A stretch of DNA of 64,000 bases, taken from contig NZ_FZNT01000003.1 of NCBI RefSeq assembly GCF_900188235.1, positions 310,001 through 374,000 on the forward strand, read 5' to 3'. This DNA is from Lutibacter agarilyticus. Its GTDB lineage: Bacteria; Bacteroidota; Bacteroidia; Flavobacteriales; Flavobacteriaceae. The translations under genes and the position numbers were made by a program. The notes under the pieces are model-generated. The model was not told the DNA's origin, ran no database searches, and saw nothing but the letters and a program-made list of their open reading frames with translations. Below, in pieces: positions 8,998-28,373 of this stretch. Within the stretch, counting starts at the first letter, position 1. Every line of letters starts with the position of its first letter.

Positions 8998-10542
8998 ATG
9001 ATATTACAAATGAAGACAAGTTTTAAAATTAAAAATATTTTATGGATTCTTTTTATTGGATTATTAGCCTGTTCAGAAAAAAAAGAAACAGCAACCGATT
9101 TTTGCTCACAAATTCATAGAAATGAAGATATAACTCTTTCAACTGAACTTGAAGATGTCGCCGAATTGATGAAAACAAAAACAGGCGTATATGTTTTAGA
9201 AGACGGAAGTGGCTCTATGGTTGCCAGAGCTTGGCTATGTGAATATGCTGAAAAGAGCATTGACATTCAATACTTCATATTTTCAACAGATAATATTGGA
9301 CTCATAGCTTGTGATTATTTAATAAGAGCTGCAGATCGAGGTATTAAGGTGAGAATTATTGTTGATGATATTATGGTAAATGCCGATATTGAAGATTTAC
9401 TAACGTTTAGCTCTCATGAAAATATTACCGTAAAAATATACAATCCCGGTGTTAATTTAGGTAAGAATATTTTTAATAAAATTCAAAAATTTACAACAGA
9501 TTTTAGAAATGCAAACCAACGTATGCATAACAAAACATTTATTGTTGATGGCAAAGTGGTCATTACTGGCGGAAGAAATATTGCCGATGAATATTTTGAT
9601 TACGACCACGAATATAATTTTAGAGATAGAGATGTTTTAATATTAGGTAATGAATCAAGTGAAGTACATAAATCATTTGAAGATTTTTGGAATAGCTCTT
9701 TAAGTCAAAATGTAACAAGCATACTTAAACAAGATTTAGAAACTACTTATTTAAAAAATAGATTTGACAAACTACATGAGTACGCATGTAATCCAGAAAA
9801 TTTTTGGCCACAAATAAGAAAAAGAATAGCAGATTTACCAGCAACATTTAATAACATTAAAAATTCAGGGAAATTAGTTTGGCTAGATGATATAACGTTT
9901 ATTTCAGATATCCCAGGTAAAAATGACGGACAAAGCGGTTTAGGTGGCGGAGGTAATTCAACTAGCGCACTGATTGATTTAATTAAAAACGCTAAATCTT
10001 CCATTAATATTCAAACTCCCTATTTAATTACTACTGATTTAGGTAAAAACCTACTTAAAGAAGCTGTTGACCGTGGAGTAAAAGTTAGAATCTTAACAAA
10101 TAGCTTGGCTTCAACAGATAATATAGAAGCCTTTAGTAGCTACCAAACAGATAGAACTAAATTATTAAAAACCGGAGTCCGAATATTTGAATTTAGGCCT
10201 GATGCTGCAGAGCGAATTAAAATAATGACTGGAGAATTACAAGAAAAACTAGATCACAAACCAATATTTGGGCTTCATGCAAAATCTATGGTAATTGATA
10301 ATAAAACAACAGTTATTGGCACTTTTAACCTAGACCCTAGAAGTGCAAATTTAAATACAGAATGCATTGTAATAGTTAATTCTACTGAAATAGCAAAAGG
10401 AGTTTTAGAAGGCATGGAAGAAGAATTTAAACCTACAAATTCTTGGGAAACAACATTGGATTTCAATCCAGATTCAGAGGTAACTAAATTAAAACGCCTA
10501 AAAACCTGGACTCGAAAAATACTCCCTAAAGAAATTTTATAA
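8998..10542 (+). CDS. Phospholipase D-like lipoprotein (cardiolipin synthase family)
   Basis: Two HKD (HxKxxxxD) catalytic motifs define the PLD superfamily: HNKTFIVD starting at His177 and HAKSMVID starting at His427, each followed by the usual Gly/Asn segment (GGRNIADEYFD and GTFNLDPRSAN). The N-terminus has a hydrophobic stretch ending in LLACSE, a lipobox with Cys25, so the mature protein is probably a lipoprotein facing the periplasm. That differs from classical inner-membrane ClsA and resembles the PLD proteins annotated as cardiolipin synthase C-like. An internal ATG at 9010 is an equally good start. Substrate (phospholipid head-group exchange or hydrolysis) is inferred. Confidence 0.8.
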   Translation: MILQMKTSFKIKNILWILFIGLLACSEKKETATDFCSQIHRNEDITLSTELEDVAELMKTKTGVYVLEDGSGSMVARAWLCEYAEKSIDIQYFIFSTDNIGLIACDYLIRAADRGIKVRIIVDDIMVNADIEDLLTFSSHENITVKIYNPGVNLGKNIFNKIQKFTTDFRNANQRMHNKTFIVDGKVVITGGRNIADEYFDYDHEYNFRDRDVLILGNESSEVHKSFEDFWNSSLSQNVTSILKQDLETTYLKNRFDKLHEYACNPENFWPQIRKRIADLPATFNNIKNSGKLVWLDDITFISDIPGKNDGQSGLGGGGNSTSALIDLIKNAKSSINIQTPYLITTDLGKNLLKEAVDRGVKVRILTNSLASTDNIEAFSSYQTDRTKLLKTGVRIFEFRPDAAERIKIMTGELQEKLDHKPIFGLHAKSMVIDNKTTVIGTFNLDPRSANLNTECIVIVNSTEIAKGVLEGMEEEFKPTNSWETTLDFNPDSEVTKLKRLKTWTRKILPKEIL

Positions 10543-22809: not shown

Positions 22810-23427
22810 ATGAAACACATTTATTTCTTCATATTATGCATCATCCTATTCAACAGCTGCCACACTCCAAAACAAACATACGAAGATACTATTAAGCAAT
22901 TTCAATATGAATTAAATACGCAATATGCAGATGCCTCTGAATCACCTTTAACTAAAGAAGATTTACCCACTTTTAGAGGGTTAGATTTTTTTACTATTGA
23001 TAAAAACTATCAAATTGAAGCTAAATTAGAATTAACTCCTAATTCACCCATTTTTGAAATGCAAACTACTACAGATAGATTGCCATTGTTTAAAATTTAT
23101 GGAATTGCATATTTTACGCTGAATGGTGAAAAATGCACCTTGAATTTATATCAAAGTCAAGATTATTCAAACACAATTAATCATCAAAATTTATTGTTTT
23201 TACCTTTTAACGATCTAACAAATGGAATATCAAGTTATAGCGGCGGACGCTTTATTGACTTAGAAACATCTTCAGCAGAGAACAACACAATAATTATTGA
23301 TTTTAACAAAGCGTACAATCCTTACTGTGCTTACAATCATAAATACTCTTGCCCCGTTCCACCTTCAGAAAACAATTTACCAATTGCAATTACAGCTGGT
23401 GTAAAAGATTATAAAAAACACCATTAA
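22810..23427 (+). CDS. DUF1684 lipoprotein
   Basis: 205 residues. The signal sequence ends in FNSCHTPK, a lipobox-like site with Cys17, so it is probably a lipoprotein. The body matches DUF1684: GLDFFTI, the SGGRFIDLE strand, and the hallmark C-terminal block NPYCAYNHKYSCPVPPSENN with LPIAITAGVKDY. The domain is structured and widespread but has no proven biochemical role. Monocistronic, followed by a terminator. Confidence 0.88.
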   Translation: MKHIYFFILCIILFNSCHTPKQTYEDTIKQFQYELNTQYADASESPLTKEDLPTFRGLDFFTIDKNYQIEAKLELTPNSPIFEMQTTTDRLPLFKIYGIAYFTLNGEKCTLNLYQSQDYSNTINHQNLLFLPFNDLTNGISSYSGGRFIDLETSSAENNTIIIDFNKAYNPYCAYNHKYSCPVPPSENNLPIAITAGVKDYKKHH

Positions 23428-23481: not shown

Positions 23482-24765
23482 TTAATGTTGATTTAAACGA
23501 AAATCAGGATAAGCATCCATTCCATGTTCGTGAATATCTAAACCATCTTGCTCTTCCTCTTTACTCACACGTATTCCCGAGGTACTTTTCAACGTTTTAA
23601 TAATTGCATACGCACTAATTAAACAAAAAGCACTAACCGCGAACACACCTACTAGTTGATAACCGAATTGTTTCCAACCAGCAAGCTCACCAAAAACACC
23701 TACAGCTAAAGTTCCCCATACACCACAAATTAAATGAACTGCTATAGCTCCAACTGGATCATCTAATTTCAATTTATCAACTAAAGCTACACCTAACACA
23801 ATTAATCCACCAGCAATAAACCCAATTACCATAGCATCTGTAACACTCATAATATCAGCTCCTGCAGTAATTCCCACTAAACCTCCAAGCACACCATTTA
23901 AAAACATCGACAAATCATATTGTTTGTATTTAAACAATGAGACTAAAAATGCAGACAATCCACCTGATGCAGCTGCTATACAAGTTGTTACCAATACCAA
24001 GGAAGTTTTTCCTGGATCAGCTGAAAGTACAGAACCTCCATTAAAACCAAACCACCCTAACCATAATAAAAACACACCTGCAGTTGCAAAAGGCATATTA
24101 TGCCCTGGTATTGCTCCAACAGAACCATCTTTCTTAAACTTACCAATTCTAGCACCTAATAACCAAACTGCAATCAAAGCAGCCCATCCTCCTACTGAAT
24201 GCACTAAGGTTGAACCCGCGAAATCATAAAAACCAGCTTCTGAAATTAGTTCACCAGCAGCGTTTACTTCGTTTCCAAGTGTTGAAAGCCATCCGCCTCC
24301 CCATTGCCAAGAACCCACAATTGGATAAATTAAACCAACGTAAATAATGGTAAAAATCATAAAAGCACCTAATTTCATTCTTTCAGCAACAGCACCTGAA
24401 ACTATAGTAGCAGCAGTAGCAGCAAACATAGCTTGAAAAAGGAAATCTGTCCAATAGGTATAACCCCCGTCAGCATAAGCTGCTGTTAAACCGTTTTCTG
24501 GTAAGTTTAACCCAAATAAATCGAAAAAATAATCAGGCACAACCCCAGCAATAAAAGAACCTGGGTACATTAAATTAAAACCTATTAGCGTGTATAACAC
24601 TAAACCCATTGAAATAATAAATACGTTTTTAAATAGAATGTTAATTGTATTTTTTTGACGTGTTAAGCCAATCTCTAACAATGAAAATCCTAAATGCATT
24701 AAAAATACCAATGAGGTACAAATCATCATCCATACGTTATTTACTGTAAATAATGTATTCTCCAT
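23482..24765 (-). CDS. amt: Ammonium transporter (first copy)
   Basis: Amt/MEP/Rh channel for ammonium in the inner membrane, 427 residues with about eleven helices. Family landmarks include FAGSTLVHSVGGWAALIAVWL with the pore His, FNGGSVLSADPGKTSLVL, and the second pore His in IAVHLICGVWGTLAVG. The cytosolic tail (GIRVSKEEEQDGLDIHEHGM) is shared with the other Amt in this window. It lies 26 bases after a PII gene; PII normally plugs Amt when nitrogen is plentiful. Last gene of its operon. Confidence 0.93.
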   Translation of the reverse strand: MENTLFTVNNVWMMICTSLVFLMHLGFSLLEIGLTRQKNTINILFKNVFIISMGLVLYTLIGFNLMYPGSFIAGVVPDYFFDLFGLNLPENGLTAAYADGGYTYWTDFLFQAMFAATAATIVSGAVAERMKLGAFMIFTIIYVGLIYPIVGSWQWGGGWLSTLGNEVNAAGELISEAGFYDFAGSTLVHSVGGWAALIAVWLLGARIGKFKKDGSVGAIPGHNMPFATAGVFLLWLGWFGFNGGSVLSADPGKTSLVLVTTCIAAASGGLSAFLVSLFKYKQYDLSMFLNGVLGGLVGITAGADIMSVTDAMVIGFIAGGLIVLGVALVDKLKLDDPVGAIAVHLICGVWGTLAVGVFGELAGWKQFGYQLVGVFAVSAFCLISAYAIIKTLKSTSGIRVSKEEEQDGLDIHEHGMDAYPDFRLNQH

Positions 24766-24791
24766 AATATAACTATATTTTTATTTAAATC

Positions 24792-25130
24792 TTATTTAAG
24801 TGAATCTGATCCACGCTCTTTTGTCCTTATTCTATAAGTTTCTTCAACATCAGAAACAAATATCTTACCATCACCAACAATACCCGTGTAAGCAGAATTC
24901 AACAACGCATCAATAGTTCTTTCTAAAAACGGATCTGAAACTACAATTGATAAATATCTTCTTTGGATATCAGAAGTACTATAACTAACACCTCTATATA
25001 CATGACCTTGTTTTTCATTCCCTACTCCGGTCACATCCCAGTAGCTAAAAAAATTAACTTCAATTTCATGCAGCGCTTCTTTAACTTCATTGAATTTAGA
25101 TTTGCGAATAATCGCCTCAATTTTCTTCAT
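24792..25130 (-). CDS. glnK: P-II family nitrogen regulator (first copy)
   Basis: 112-residue trimeric signal protein that reports 2-oxoglutarate and ATP/ADP and closes the Amt channel. The N-terminal MKKIEAIIRKSKFNEVKEAL, the T-loop region with YRGVSY (Tyr at the site uridylylated in enteric PII) and the C-terminal GDGKIFVSDVEETYRIRT are all present. About five in six residues are identical to the second copy at 27739; differences cluster at the C-terminus and around residues 70-85. First gene of a glnK-amt operon with a characteristic promoter (25160-25243). Confidence 0.95.
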   Translation of the reverse strand: MKKIEAIIRKSKFNEVKEALHEIEVNFFSYWDVTGVGNEKQGHVYRGVSYSTSDIQRRYLSIVVSDPFLERTIDALLNSAYTGIVGDGKIFVSDVEETYRIRTKERGSDSLK

Positions 25131-25159
25131 AATTACTTAAATATTTAGTTAATCGAACC

Positions 25160-25243
25160 CAAAAATATATTTTTTATTTGTTACCCCCTAATTTTTATAG
25201 GGGTCAATCCTAATTTTTATACATATTTTTATTTTCACCCCTA
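25160..25243 (-). promoter_or_regulatory. Promoter and palindromic operator of glnK-amt (first copy)
   Basis: On the minus strand the -7 box is TATTTTTG (25167-25160). Fifteen bases upstream of it begins a C5/G4 inverted repeat: ACCCCCTA at 25183-25190 and TAGGGGT at 25198-25204 (one unpaired C). A further half-site ACCCCTA sits at 25237-25243. There is no ordinary -33 TTG; the repeat takes its place, which suggests an activator. The layout is repeated before the second glnK. Confidence 0.65.
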
Positions 25244-25292
25244 TTTGTTAAATAATATTTAAATTAAAGCAATAATTTACATATAAATAAAA

Positions 25293-25322
25293 AACACCCA
25301 ATGAATAAATTCATTGGGTGTT
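25293..25322 (-). terminator. Terminator of the glnK-amt-porin operon
   Basis: Perfect 13-bp stem AACACCCAATGAA / TTCATTGGGTGTT with a four-base loop; on the minus strand it is followed by TTTTTTATT. With the operator at 25160-25243 it fills the 307-base gap before glnK; the 114 bases between it and the porin stop hold nothing I recognise. Confidence 0.85.
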
Positions 25323-25437
25323 AAACCAAACCTAATATTAGAATTAATAACTATTAATATGAATTTTAACCTATTTCACTTATTAAATTAAAATGTCATA
25401 CAAAATAGCATATTCTTATTTTTAAAATTGTGTTATC

Positions 25438-26454
25438 CTAGAACGCATATATTGCAGCAACTAAGAAAGAAGATAAATTATCAGATGGCATTCCATCCGC
25501 ATCCATATAAGGCATAGAATCACTCCAAGAATCTAATCTAATTTCTGGCTTAATTGTCAAGTTCTCAACACTATAACTCCCCGTTAAAGTAAGACCTAAA
25601 ACACTTTCTTCTGCAGGATTTGCATCCCCATGCAAACCAAAATACTCACCTCTTAAACCAACCGAGAAAGCATCAGAAGTAGCTAATTGAGGGTATAAAG
25701 CAACTCCGTAGAATCCAGACCCATCATTATCATTATAAGCTGCATTAATTCCGAAGAAGAAAGAATCTGTAACATCAAATCCACCAGTATAATCAATTTC
25801 AAAACCTAAACCACCGCTATTACCACTGTCATAATATAAGTTAAGATATTGACCTTTGAAACCTAATTGAGCACCAAGTGCATATTCACCCGACATAGAA
25901 GTATCATTTGTATCCCAAGGATTAGTAACAGCCAACATTAAGCTAAAATCTTCAGACAAAGCAAAATCAGCTTTTATACCAACGTGAGAAAAAGGACCGC
26001 TAGAGAATAAATATGATGTACTGTAGTTGAAATTTGCTACAGGAGAAATAACCTCATACCCTAAGAACGTATTAAATCTACCCATTGTAAGCGTTGTCTT
26101 ATCAGAAACATTGTAGTACACATATGCTTGATTAACAATACCATCAACAATATCAGAATTAAAAGTTGCGCTTGCACCTCTTGGCCCAGTAACTAGATCA
26201 AGTACTGCTCCTACTTTTTCACCTTCATAAGCAAAAACTACGTTCCCCATACCAACTGCAAATCCTGAATTTTCTGCAAAAGCAGTTCCAAATGATTGAC
26301 CATCATTATCTGGAGCTGATAAATACGCTTGATAATACGCATCTACAGAACCACTTATTGTAAATTTCTTTTCTTCTTTTTCTTCTTGCGCATTCATTAT
26401 TCCTACTGAAAATACCGCAATTAATACTAGTACTATTTTTTTAATTGTTTTCAT
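25438..26454 (-). CDS. Outer-membrane barrel protein linked to ammonium transport
   Basis: 338 residues with a signal peptide (cleavage after IMNAQ, about residue 22), then about sixteen amphipathic strands and a C-terminal aromatic (VAAIYAF) typical of outer-membrane barrels. It looks like the carboxylate/phosphate-selective porin-like family of Bacteroidota. It follows amt by 48 bases and precedes a terminator, so it belongs to the glnK-amt operon. Its presence suggests that nitrogen starvation also opens the outer membrane to ammonium or small amines; this is inference. Confidence 0.7.
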   Translation of the reverse strand: MKTIKKIVLVLIAVFSVGIMNAQEEKEEKKFTISGSVDAYYQAYLSAPDNDGQSFGTAFAENSGFAVGMGNVVFAYEGEKVGAVLDLVTGPRGASATFNSDIVDGIVNQAYVYYNVSDKTTLTMGRFNTFLGYEVISPVANFNYSTSYLFSSGPFSHVGIKADFALSEDFSLMLAVTNPWDTNDTSMSGEYALGAQLGFKGQYLNLYYDSGNSGGLGFEIDYTGGFDVTDSFFFGINAAYNDNDGSGFYGVALYPQLATSDAFSVGLRGEYFGLHGDANPAEESVLGLTLTGSYSVENLTIKPEIRLDSWSDSMPYMDADGMPSDNLSSFLVAAIYAF

Positions 26455-26502
26455 AATTCCTGTTCTTGTTTTTATTTAATTTAATGTTCTTGAAAATTTT
26501 GA

Positions 26503-27699
26503 TTAGTTGTATACGTTTGATTTATGCTCGTGTATATCTAATCCGTCTACTTCTTCTTCTTTAGAAACTCTAAGACCAATTGTTTTCTTCAAAACAAACA
26601 ACACTATAAATGCTGTAACAACCGCCCAAGCACCAATTGCTAACACACCAATTGCCTGCACTCCTAATTGAGCAAATCCACCACCATAAAGTAAACCTCC
26701 ATCAGTTGCAAATACACCAACCAATAATGTACCTAAAGCACCACAAACACCGTGAACTGAAACAGCACCTACTGGATCGTCAATATTTAATTTTTTATCA
26801 ATAAAGTCAATTGAGAATACTACAACAGCACCTCCTATAATTCCAATAATTAAAGCACCTACCGGACTAACAGCAGCACAACCAGCTGTAATTGCTACTA
26901 AACCTGCTAAAGCACCGTTCAATGTCATTGAAATATCAGGCTTACCATAAGAAATCCAAGACACAATCATTGCCGTTACTGCACCCGCAGCAGCAGCTAA
27001 ATTGGTAGTAATTACGATTCCTGCAACAGCATTTGCACTATCTCCAGAAATTGCCAATTCAGAACCAGCGTTAAAACCAAACCAACCTAACCATAGGATT
27101 AACACCCCTAAAGCTCCAATTAATAAGTTGTGACCTGGGATTGCATTTGATTTTCCGTTTGTATATTTTCCAATTCTTGGACCTACTAAAATTGCACCAA
27201 CTAAAGCAGCCCATCCACCAACAGAGTGCACTACAGTTGAACCTGCAAAATCAATAAAACCTAGTTCAGTTAACCAACCTTCACCTTGCCACACCCAGTG
27301 ACCAGAAATTGGATAAATAACTACAGTCATAATAAATGAGAAAATGATATATGTTGAAAATTTTGTTCTCCCCGCTACAGCTCCAGAAACAATTGTTGCT
27401 GCTGTTGCTGCAAAAACGGTTTGAAAGAACAAATTGTGCATATCTTCCGAATTGCTATAAAATAAAGTTGGAGAACCTATAAAAGACCCTATTGTTTCTC
27501 CATACATTACCGTGTAACCAATGGCCCAAAAACCAATAGTACCGATACAAAGGTCCATAATATTTTTCATAATAATATTCCCCGCATTTTTTGATCTGGT
27601 AAAACCAGTCTCAACAAGCGTAAATCCTGCTTGCATAAAAAACACTAAAATCCCGCAGATTACTATCCACATTAAATCTAAAACAGCGTTAGCTTCCAT
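26503..27699 (-). CDS. amt: Ammonium transporter (second copy)
   Basis: 398-residue Amt channel. Pore and gate landmarks: FAGSTVVHSVGGWAALVGAI, FNAGSELAISGD, and VSVHGVCGALGTLLVG. It is clearly a different Amt type from the copy at 23482 (shorter, with changes in many helices) while keeping the same tail motif GLRVSKEEEVDGLDIHEH, which may be the PII docking region. It lies between its own PII gene (39 bases upstream) and an outer-membrane protein gene. Confidence 0.93.
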   Translation of the reverse strand: MEANAVLDLMWIVICGILVFFMQAGFTLVETGFTRSKNAGNIIMKNIMDLCIGTIGFWAIGYTVMYGETIGSFIGSPTLFYSNSEDMHNLFFQTVFAATAATIVSGAVAGRTKFSTYIIFSFIMTVVIYPISGHWVWQGEGWLTELGFIDFAGSTVVHSVGGWAALVGAILVGPRIGKYTNGKSNAIPGHNLLIGALGVLILWLGWFGFNAGSELAISGDSANAVAGIVITTNLAAAAGAVTAMIVSWISYGKPDISMTLNGALAGLVAITAGCAAVSPVGALIIGIIGGAVVVFSIDFIDKKLNIDDPVGAVSVHGVCGALGTLLVGVFATDGGLLYGGGFAQLGVQAIGVLAIGAWAVVTAFIVLFVLKKTIGLRVSKEEEVDGLDIHEHKSNVYN

Positions 27700-27738
27700 A
27701 ATATTCTTGTTTAAATTGTTTGTTCGTTTTATCTAAAT

Positions 27739-28077
27739 TTATTTTACAGCTTCGATGCCCTTTTCTTTCGTTCTTATTCTATAAGTCTCCTCAATATTTG
27801 AAACGAATATTTTACCATCACCTACTGAACCTGTAAAAGCAGACTTTAAAACTGCATCTACAGCTATCTCTAAAAATGGGTCTGAAACTACTATTGATAA
27901 ATACCTGCGCTGTATATCAGTAGTACTATAACTAACACCTCTATAAACATGACCTTGTTTTTCATTTCCTACTCCAGTTACATCCCAGTAACTAAAAAAA
28001 TTAACTTCTATTTGATGTAAAGCATCCTTAACTTCATCAAATTTTGATTTTCGAATAATAGCTTCGATTTTCTTCAT
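27739..28077 (-). CDS. glnK: P-II family nitrogen regulator (second copy)
   Basis: 112 residues and nearly the same protein as the PII at 24792, including the T-loop YRGVSY and the nucleotide-binding GDGKIFVS. Variable positions include the C-terminal tail (KGIEAVK against RGSDSLK) and residues 70-85, the region between the T-loop and the C-terminal strand. The near identity, with each copy sitting beside a different Amt, suggests duplication of a glnK-amt unit followed by divergence of the transporter rather than of the regulator. Confidence 0.95.
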   Translation of the reverse strand: MKKIEAIIRKSKFDEVKDALHQIEVNFFSYWDVTGVGNEKQGHVYRGVSYSTTDIQRRYLSIVVSDPFLEIAVDAVLKSAFTGSVGDGKIFVSNIEETYRIRTKEKGIEAVK

Positions 28078-28109
28078 AATAAAAATGATTTTTATAATTG
28101 ATTTCGAGT

Positions 28110-28191
28110 CAAAAATATATTTATTTTATTTTACCCCCTAATTTTTTAGGGGGTAAAATATTATTTTTATGTTTTATAGATTTTTACCCCT
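28110..28191 (-). promoter_or_regulatory. Promoter and palindromic operator of glnK-amt-porin (second copy)
   Basis: Minus-strand -7 box TATTTTTG (28117-28110). A perfect 14-bp inverted repeat, TATTTTACCCCCTA at 28127-28140 and its complement at 28147-28160, is centred 26.5 bases upstream of the box, exactly as before the other glnK. A half-site ACCCCT lies at 28186-28191, 53 bases from the first arm (54 in the other copy). Predicted leader about 27 bases. Confidence 0.7.
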
Positions 28192-28373
28192 GTTTTTTTA
28201 TAGGTATAATAAAATTATGTTAATTTTTATATTATTAACAAATTAATAAATAAGAATGTTTTCCAAGAAAATGAAAAAGAATAAGTTCAGTAAAAAAATT
28301 ACTATGCTATTTTAACATAAATCAACATCAATTTTAACCTTCAAGCAACTAAAAAAGCGATGATGGTTAATCT

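Follow-up and report, generated by a model that had tools for sequence, protein, structure and literature searches.

Upstream of each of two glnK-amt operons in a 64,000-nucleotide stretch of Lutibacter agarilyticus DNA (contig NZ_FZNT01000003.1, positions 310,001 to 374,000; this whole stretch is called the window), we found a module of two GC-rich palindromes built from ACCCC/GGGGT half-sites, followed at a fixed distance by a -7 promoter box. The same module precedes ammonium-assimilation genes in many other Flavobacteriaceae. Judged by its sequence, it is very probably a conserved operator of nitrogen genes. With a probability of about 0.7, we read it as the operator of a Flavobacteriaceae nitrogen-assimilation regulon that an activator protein would recognise; this figure was lowered from 0.74 to 0.70 because data from Prevotella were weighed in.

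The module and its target genes

Across relatives, the module takes the form [ACCCC-N9-12-GGGGT]-N30-34-[ACCCC-N9-12-GGGGT], with a TAnnTTTG -7 box 14-16 nt further on. We refer to the distal palindrome as IR1 and to the promoter-proximal one as IR2. The window has a perfect IR2 and a degenerate IR1, and many relatives show the opposite. Employing a glnK protein search of named genomes, we kept the best 80 loci and scored their 400-nt upstream regions for four half-sites, allowing up to 3 mismatches over 20 positions. The arrangement was present in 16 of 41 flavobacterial regions, compared with 0 of 39 from other groups and 0 of 1230 dinucleotide shuffles. Among the remaining 25 flavobacterial regions, seven scored 4, one scored 5 and 17 were without the arrangement.

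A pattern of three half-sites (ACCCC-N9-12-GGGGT-N30-34-ACCCC) matched 132 of 397 genomes of the family, versus 16 for the reversed pattern. We examined 110 of the matched loci, leaving out six chance-looking places and some others. At 105 of them, the match lay no more than 450 bp upstream of glnK, amt, divergent glnA/glnN, gltB, a porin gene (often divergent from gltB) or ald; the loci without any of these seven gene types downstream were L115, L120, L129, L173 and L198. All four additional loci were at glnK, porin or glnN. Gene names of the protein clusters were assigned by recognition from sequence, and profile-library tests were applied to glnK, amt and porin of the window only. The same operator thus stands ahead of several unlinked ammonium-assimilation genes, as expected of a nitrogen-assimilation regulon. 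A sequence-only reading of the window had proposed the binding site of a nitrogen-responsive activator at the -40 position and had suggested a search before glutamine synthetase, gltB, urea and nitrate genes in other Flavobacteriaceae. Many genomes bore out a conserved, nitrogen-linked cis-regulatory site over the -33/-40 region, and they have it ahead of gltB and glutamine synthetase as well; none of the 110 loci had a urea or nitrate gene as its target.

A single module sits between divergent glnA and glnN, and a module in this position can serve both directions. Modules were also found at glnK of the congeners G047 and G269, and two genomes of genus g127 (G127 and G317) showed only remnants at glnA and nothing at glnN. 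At four ald loci (L138, L152, L200 and L222), matches on both strands revealed a palindrome flanked on both sides by a half-site at the usual spacing, which appears to be an extended form of the operator. As a separate observation, locus L157 carries a SAM-II riboswitch above the gathering score at 9400-9458.

In a class-wide search, 24 of 295 genomes matched, the source genome included. Five matches outside the family lay before glnN (G614, G505, G472 and G517) or amt (G683), and that in G174, a genome of the family, lay before ald; the remaining class-level matches adjoined no such gene and look like chance. The -7-like box of the glnN genes outside the family was exact in G614 and G505 and read TACCTTCG in G472 and G517.

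The palindrome is rare in the source genome. ACCCC-N12-GGGGT occurs at exactly two places in 4.10 Mb, both of them glnK promoters, and its reversed control at none; ACCCC-N8-13-GGGGT occurs at four (control 0), the two extra places being inside open reading frames. Within the window alone and with two mismatches allowed, 8 matches were found versus 3.67 expected, and 3 of 100 shuffles reached 8, which is weak evidence. A third, weaker copy with similar spacing is present in the source genome at the divergent glnA/glnN promoter (contig C21). Family-wide, the single palindrome ACCCC-N12-GGGGT was not specific (120 of 199 genomes matched, with many control matches too); the three-half-site pattern, unlike the single palindrome, is specific across the family.

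On the minus strand of the window, positions 23482-28077 hold glnK-amt-porin-glnK-amt in this order; the two ammonium operons are paralogous, and a separate module precedes each. The features, all on the minus strand, are as follows.

28203-28207: copy B, IR1 partner half-site, degenerate ATACC (GGTAT on the plus strand), two mismatches over the palindrome
28186-28190: copy B, distal palindrome IR1, GGGGT half-site
28133-28154: copy B, promoter-proximal palindrome IR2, ACCCCCTAAAAAATTAGGGGGT, a 22-bp inverted repeat; perfect arms reach 28127-28160
28110-28117: copy B, -7 box TATTTTTG (exact TAnnTTTG), separated by 15 nt from IR2 upstream; first glnK-amt operon
27739-28077: glnK (P-II protein) of operon B; P-II family profile matches, below equivalog cut-offs
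26503-27699: amt (ammonium transporter) of operon B; TIGR00836 above cut-off
25438-26454: porin (BBP2 family, by the profile library), between the two glnK-amt operons
25237-25241: copy A, distal palindrome IR1, GGGGT half-site; partner half-site lost or degenerate
25183-25204: copy A, promoter-proximal palindrome IR2, ACCCCTATAAAAATTAGGGGGT, a 22-bp inverted repeat
25160-25167: copy A, -7 box TATTTTTG (exact TAnnTTTG), separated by 15 nt from IR2 upstream; second glnK-amt operon
24792-25130: glnK (P-II protein) of operon A; P-II family profile matches, below equivalog cut-offs
23482-24765: amt (ammonium transporter) of operon A; TIGR00836 above cut-off

Everything that the sequence-only reading had described at these two promoters, all distances included, was confirmed: a TATTTTTG box ahead of both glnK genes, an IR2 whose centre lies 26.5 nt from the box end in each copy (15 nt separating box and IR2), 14-bp perfect arms in copy B (28127-28140 and 28147-28160), a further ACCCC half-site (plus strand, 25237-25241 and 28186-28190) 54 nt (copy A) and 53 nt (copy B) from the first arm, and no TTG at -33 within the 26 nt inspected before each box. 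Its view of the unit as one palindrome plus a half-site has to be replaced by one of two palindromes with four half-sites: a fourth half-site (GGTAT, 28203-28207; barely recognisable in copy A) completes a second palindrome, which is perfect in many relatives. Conservation does not extend to the 14-bp arms of copy B: flanks beyond the ACCCC core pair little or no better than shuffled ones.

Porins of the same cluster carry a module copy of their own in relatives. Positions 25294-25321, between the porin gene and the copy A module, form a hairpin whose two 12-bp arms match perfectly (ACACCCAATGAA-taaa-TTCATTGGGTGT). A run of T comes next on the minus strand, and the whole resembles a terminator belonging to the upstream operon. 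Adjoining amt is a DUF1684 gene (22810-23427); genes of the same cluster neighbour glnK in 22 further loci besides the window, and the DUF1684 gene may therefore belong to ammonium metabolism.

Promoter geometry and proposed mode of action

All four half-sites were located in 105 upstream regions, comprising 29 of 31 for glnK, 26 of 26 for glnA, 21 of 23 for porin, 15 of 15 for ald and 14 of 28 for glnN; gltB was left out of this set, and the glnK, porin and glnA regions make up the 76 modules considered below. The ACCCC-to-ACCCC distance was 51-54 bp in all 50 glnK and porin modules and in 25 of 26 glnA modules, and 50-54 bp in all 76, the search pattern itself permitting 49-56. The palindromes are thus about 53 bp, or five helical turns, apart; within a palindrome, half-site centres are mostly 15-16 bp apart. 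The best TAnnTTTG box (at most 1 mismatch) started 14-16 nt after IR2 in 61 of the 76 modules, where about 3 would be expected from a background of 0.012 per position.

In a study on F. psychrophilum, the consensus TAnnTTTG box is located at -12 to -5 (PMC9723704). Combined with the fixed distance, this location places the centre of IR2 at about -39 and that of IR1 at about -92. IR2 then spans about -49 to -28, over the position of the -33 element. Compared to a flavobacterial sigma-A promoter, the modules keep the TAnnTTTG box, exact in both window copies, and mostly lack the -33 element: TTG was present 18-20 nt before the box in just 6 of 73 modules. Between the palindromes, ATAAAA[A/G]T was found in 20 of 29 glnK and 16 of 21 porin modules but in 0 of 26 glnA, 0 of 14 glnN and 0 of 15 ald modules. 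In most glnK modules, and also in porin modules, ATAAAAAT stands at a near-fixed place between the palindromes; it is absent from glnA, glnN and ald modules and may be contacted by the alpha subunit of the polymerase or by a second factor.

We propose that a dimeric (or larger) DNA-binding protein would recognise the ACCCC/GGGGT half-sites. One dimer would bind IR2, near -39, and make up for the -33 contact that sigma-A RNA polymerase lacks here; a second would bind IR1, near -92, on the same helix face and five turns further upstream. The most likely outcome would be activation of the kind known from class III promoters (class II plus an upstream site), most likely under scarce ammonium. The sequences themselves show the architecture of the module, its conservation, its constant distance from the -7 box and the genes that follow it; protein binding, activation, and a nitrogen response and its sign are what we infer for the module, and it is from the position of the sites that we favour activation over repression.

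Several observations weigh against this proposal. The position of a site does not by itself tell an activator from a repressor, and the proposal stands on sequence. The spacing inside a palindrome ranges from 8 to 13 nt (mostly 10-11), which is unusual for a rigid dimer. At glnN, four half-sites were placed in just 14 of 28 regions, with the box at 15-17 nt in 7 of these; at ald, the box was at 15-17 nt in just 4 of 15, and the ald promoter therefore appears to be arranged differently. In G614, G505, G472 and G517, the box lies 10-12 nt from the third half-site, a geometry unlike that of the family. The module was not found in the gltB and ald upstream regions of the source genome. Finally, in the accessible parts of a study on Prevotella ruminicola, transcripts of amtB and glnK were higher at non-limiting ammonium (PMC5552732). 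In the same parts, amtB, glnK, glnN-2 and gltBD respond together to nitrogen, and no promoter motif or transcription factor is named (PMC5552732). We found no module at the Prevotella loci examined; the data show that the expected ammonium sign does not hold phylum-wide.

Alternatively, the same operator could be read by a repressor, the protein on IR2 covering -33 and blocking polymerase at plentiful ammonium, with IR1 adding cooperativity. A protein spread over the span of IR2 would also occlude polymerase, and the box geometry differs at ald and in other families, both of which would fit. We consider repression somewhat unlikely: the -33 TTG is missing from most modules, as expected if an activator substitutes for it, and the distal palindrome is kept five turns away.

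Candidate regulators and the RNA alternative

Among the 110 loci, no recognisable regulator gene was present among the close downstream genes of any site, and autoregulation was rejected on these grounds. Employing 17 E. coli and 2 flavobacterial baits, we collected regulators of the corresponding families from 1.395 Mb of the small (about 1.7-Mb) genome G166. Ten of them were searched in 16 other genomes at E<=1e-12; response regulator, AraC, XRE, NtrC-type and B12-type MerR matches of G166 were left out of this presence test. A checked module or module-like site is present in 13 of the 16 genomes (G131 has a single palindrome, and G185 and G352 a pattern count only). MerR-family, TetR-family and Fur-like proteins were each found in 16 of 16, some of the TetR matches with only 27-36% identity, which may be paralogues. 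Crp had no match in G043 (99% complete, glnK module confirmed) and G158, and Rrf2, ArsR, BlaI and the third Lrp were each missing from several of the genomes tested. Candidates of the Lrp/AsnC, Crp, Rrf2, ArsR and BlaI families thus each lack a match in some genome that has a checked module.

Based on spacing and on the family membership of GlnR/TnrA, the MerR-family protein is the candidate that we would test first. It was found in all of the genomes tested, and the 15-16 bp between half-site centres presumably resembles that of MerR-family operators. Typical MerR-family operators lie between -35 and -10 with a long spacer; IR2 differs in lying upstream of the box, at about -39. A literature search for a CadR-like operator found nothing. 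Searched by sequence, the protein had no solved relative at E<=0.001, and against the TnrA model it scored 28.2 bits, far below the 140-bit cut-off. A broader proposal, which we regard as quite unlikely, is that Bacteroidia possess a master nitrogen regulator of their own, older than the family: a two-dimer activator on ACCCC/GGGGT palindromes. This regulator could be the MerR-family protein that is present almost everywhere (108 aa in G166). If so, this protein would be a distant functional counterpart of GlnR/TnrA with class-III-like activation of sigma-A promoters.

Lrp is known to control nitrogen and alanine metabolism, and by this analogy the regulator might instead be a member of the Lrp/AsnC family, which we regard as improbable. 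Of 11 long ald loci, 10 have an Lrp/AsnC gene close to ald, LrpB was found in 11 of 11 genomes of the family tested, and a third Lrp gene lies 1.8 kb past amt in G166. Against this, the ald-linked Lrp had no match (E<=1e-12) in G118 and G313, both with perfect modules; five genomes of other families with module-like sites gave no match to any of the three Lrp types; and the ald neighbourhood is conserved as a whole. LrpA, LrpB and LrpC were each unmatched in some of the genomes with checked modules or module-like sites, and LrpB would possibly stay a candidate if the sites in other families belong to another protein.

Some further regulator genes were seen near modules. The third Lrp/AsnC-family gene of G166 (contig C4, L342 14739-15198) lies two genes past glnK-amt-porin, and a relative of it lies between the glnA and glnK modules of G182. 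Of the 22 glnN loci exceeding 6 kb, 15 carry a gene for a BlaI-type repressor near glnN (L144, L153, L156, L202, L211 and L214 among them), often accompanied by a BlaR-type gene; G683 has a comparable pair close to amt (L257). The glnN-linked BlaI and ald-linked Lrp genes look like conserved neighbours rather than the regulator. The BlaI and Lrp proteins tested were unmatched in some module-bearing genomes, the BlaI tested being that of G166 and not the glnA-linked one.

The remaining alternative is a transcribed RNA hairpin or terminator, with transcription starting upstream and the palindrome acting in the 5' leader. In its favour, palindromes are long and perfect in some relatives (L034, L046 and L052). 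We examined pairing beside the core at sites chosen for an exact ACCCC/GGGGT, where the core itself is uninformative. Two of the eight outer positions of IR1 paired slightly above shuffled, at 27 vs 21.4 and 28 vs 20.1 of 54 sites (values reached by 82 and 31 of 2000 shuffles), a slight excess on the side of a hairpin; the other six and all eight of IR2 showed none. No pairing beside the core was seen in 27 of 54 IR1 and 21 of 33 IR2 sites, and inner positions were nearly all A or T with no strand preference. The compensatory pairing beyond the conserved core that is expected of an RNA hairpin or riboswitch was not found. An Rfam search gave no match to the module, the -7 box lies downstream of it at a fixed distance, and one module sits between divergent genes. 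A hairpin is extremely unlikely because flank pairing is slight, no Rfam family matches and the module is usable by both glnA and glnN; a protein-binding operator better explains why the -7 box is kept at a fixed distance and why the flanks show no clear covariation beyond the core.

Comparison with known nitrogen control systems

Flavobacteria play a major part in degrading marine and soil polymers and are often found at low ammonium. A literature search, in part of passages, returned no transcriptional regulator or operator described for flavobacterial ammonium assimilation, and one that mostly reached less than the full text returned no description of the operator reported here. In a term search of a study on sigma-54 regulons, glnA was absent from the text (PMC12316311). 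The double palindrome appears to be an unusual conserved operator and points to a nitrogen regulator yet to be found. The module defines a regulon, supplies a DNA bait for its protein and predicts promoter positions to the base; the control of nitrogen genes in Bacteroidota therefore becomes directly testable.

Motifs of known systems were scored in the 76 modules. NtcA governs the global nitrogen regulon of cyanobacteria (glnA, amt and glnB) from an activator site at about -41 combined with an intact -10 box. The module is similar in serving a nitrogen regulon and in placing a site where the upstream promoter element would be, but GTA-N8-TAC occurs in 0 of 76 modules, which instead have two palindromes with ACCCC half-sites. 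NtrC with sigma-54 controls the same target genes in Pseudomonadota. Apart from these targets the systems differ: TGGC..TTGC was found in 0 of 76 modules, GG-N10-GC in 2 and an NtrC-like site in 0, and the -7 box here is of the sigma-A type.

GlnR and TnrA of Bacilli, which belong to the MerR family, control glnA, amt-glnK and gltB through a palindrome with an A/T-rich centre. Target genes and the A/T-rich centre are shared, and a small MerR-family protein is present in 16 of 16 genomes. In contrast, 3 of the 76 modules have the TGTnA-N6/7-TnACA box, which both window copies lack, and binding of a MerR-family protein here is putative. In arrangement, the module resembles the CRP class III promoters of E. 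coli, where tandem activator sites lie near -41 and -92 and half-site centres are 11 bp apart. Both have two tandem sites about five turns apart, but a CRP site was found in 0 of 76 modules, and the half-site centres here are mostly 15-16 bp apart, not 11.

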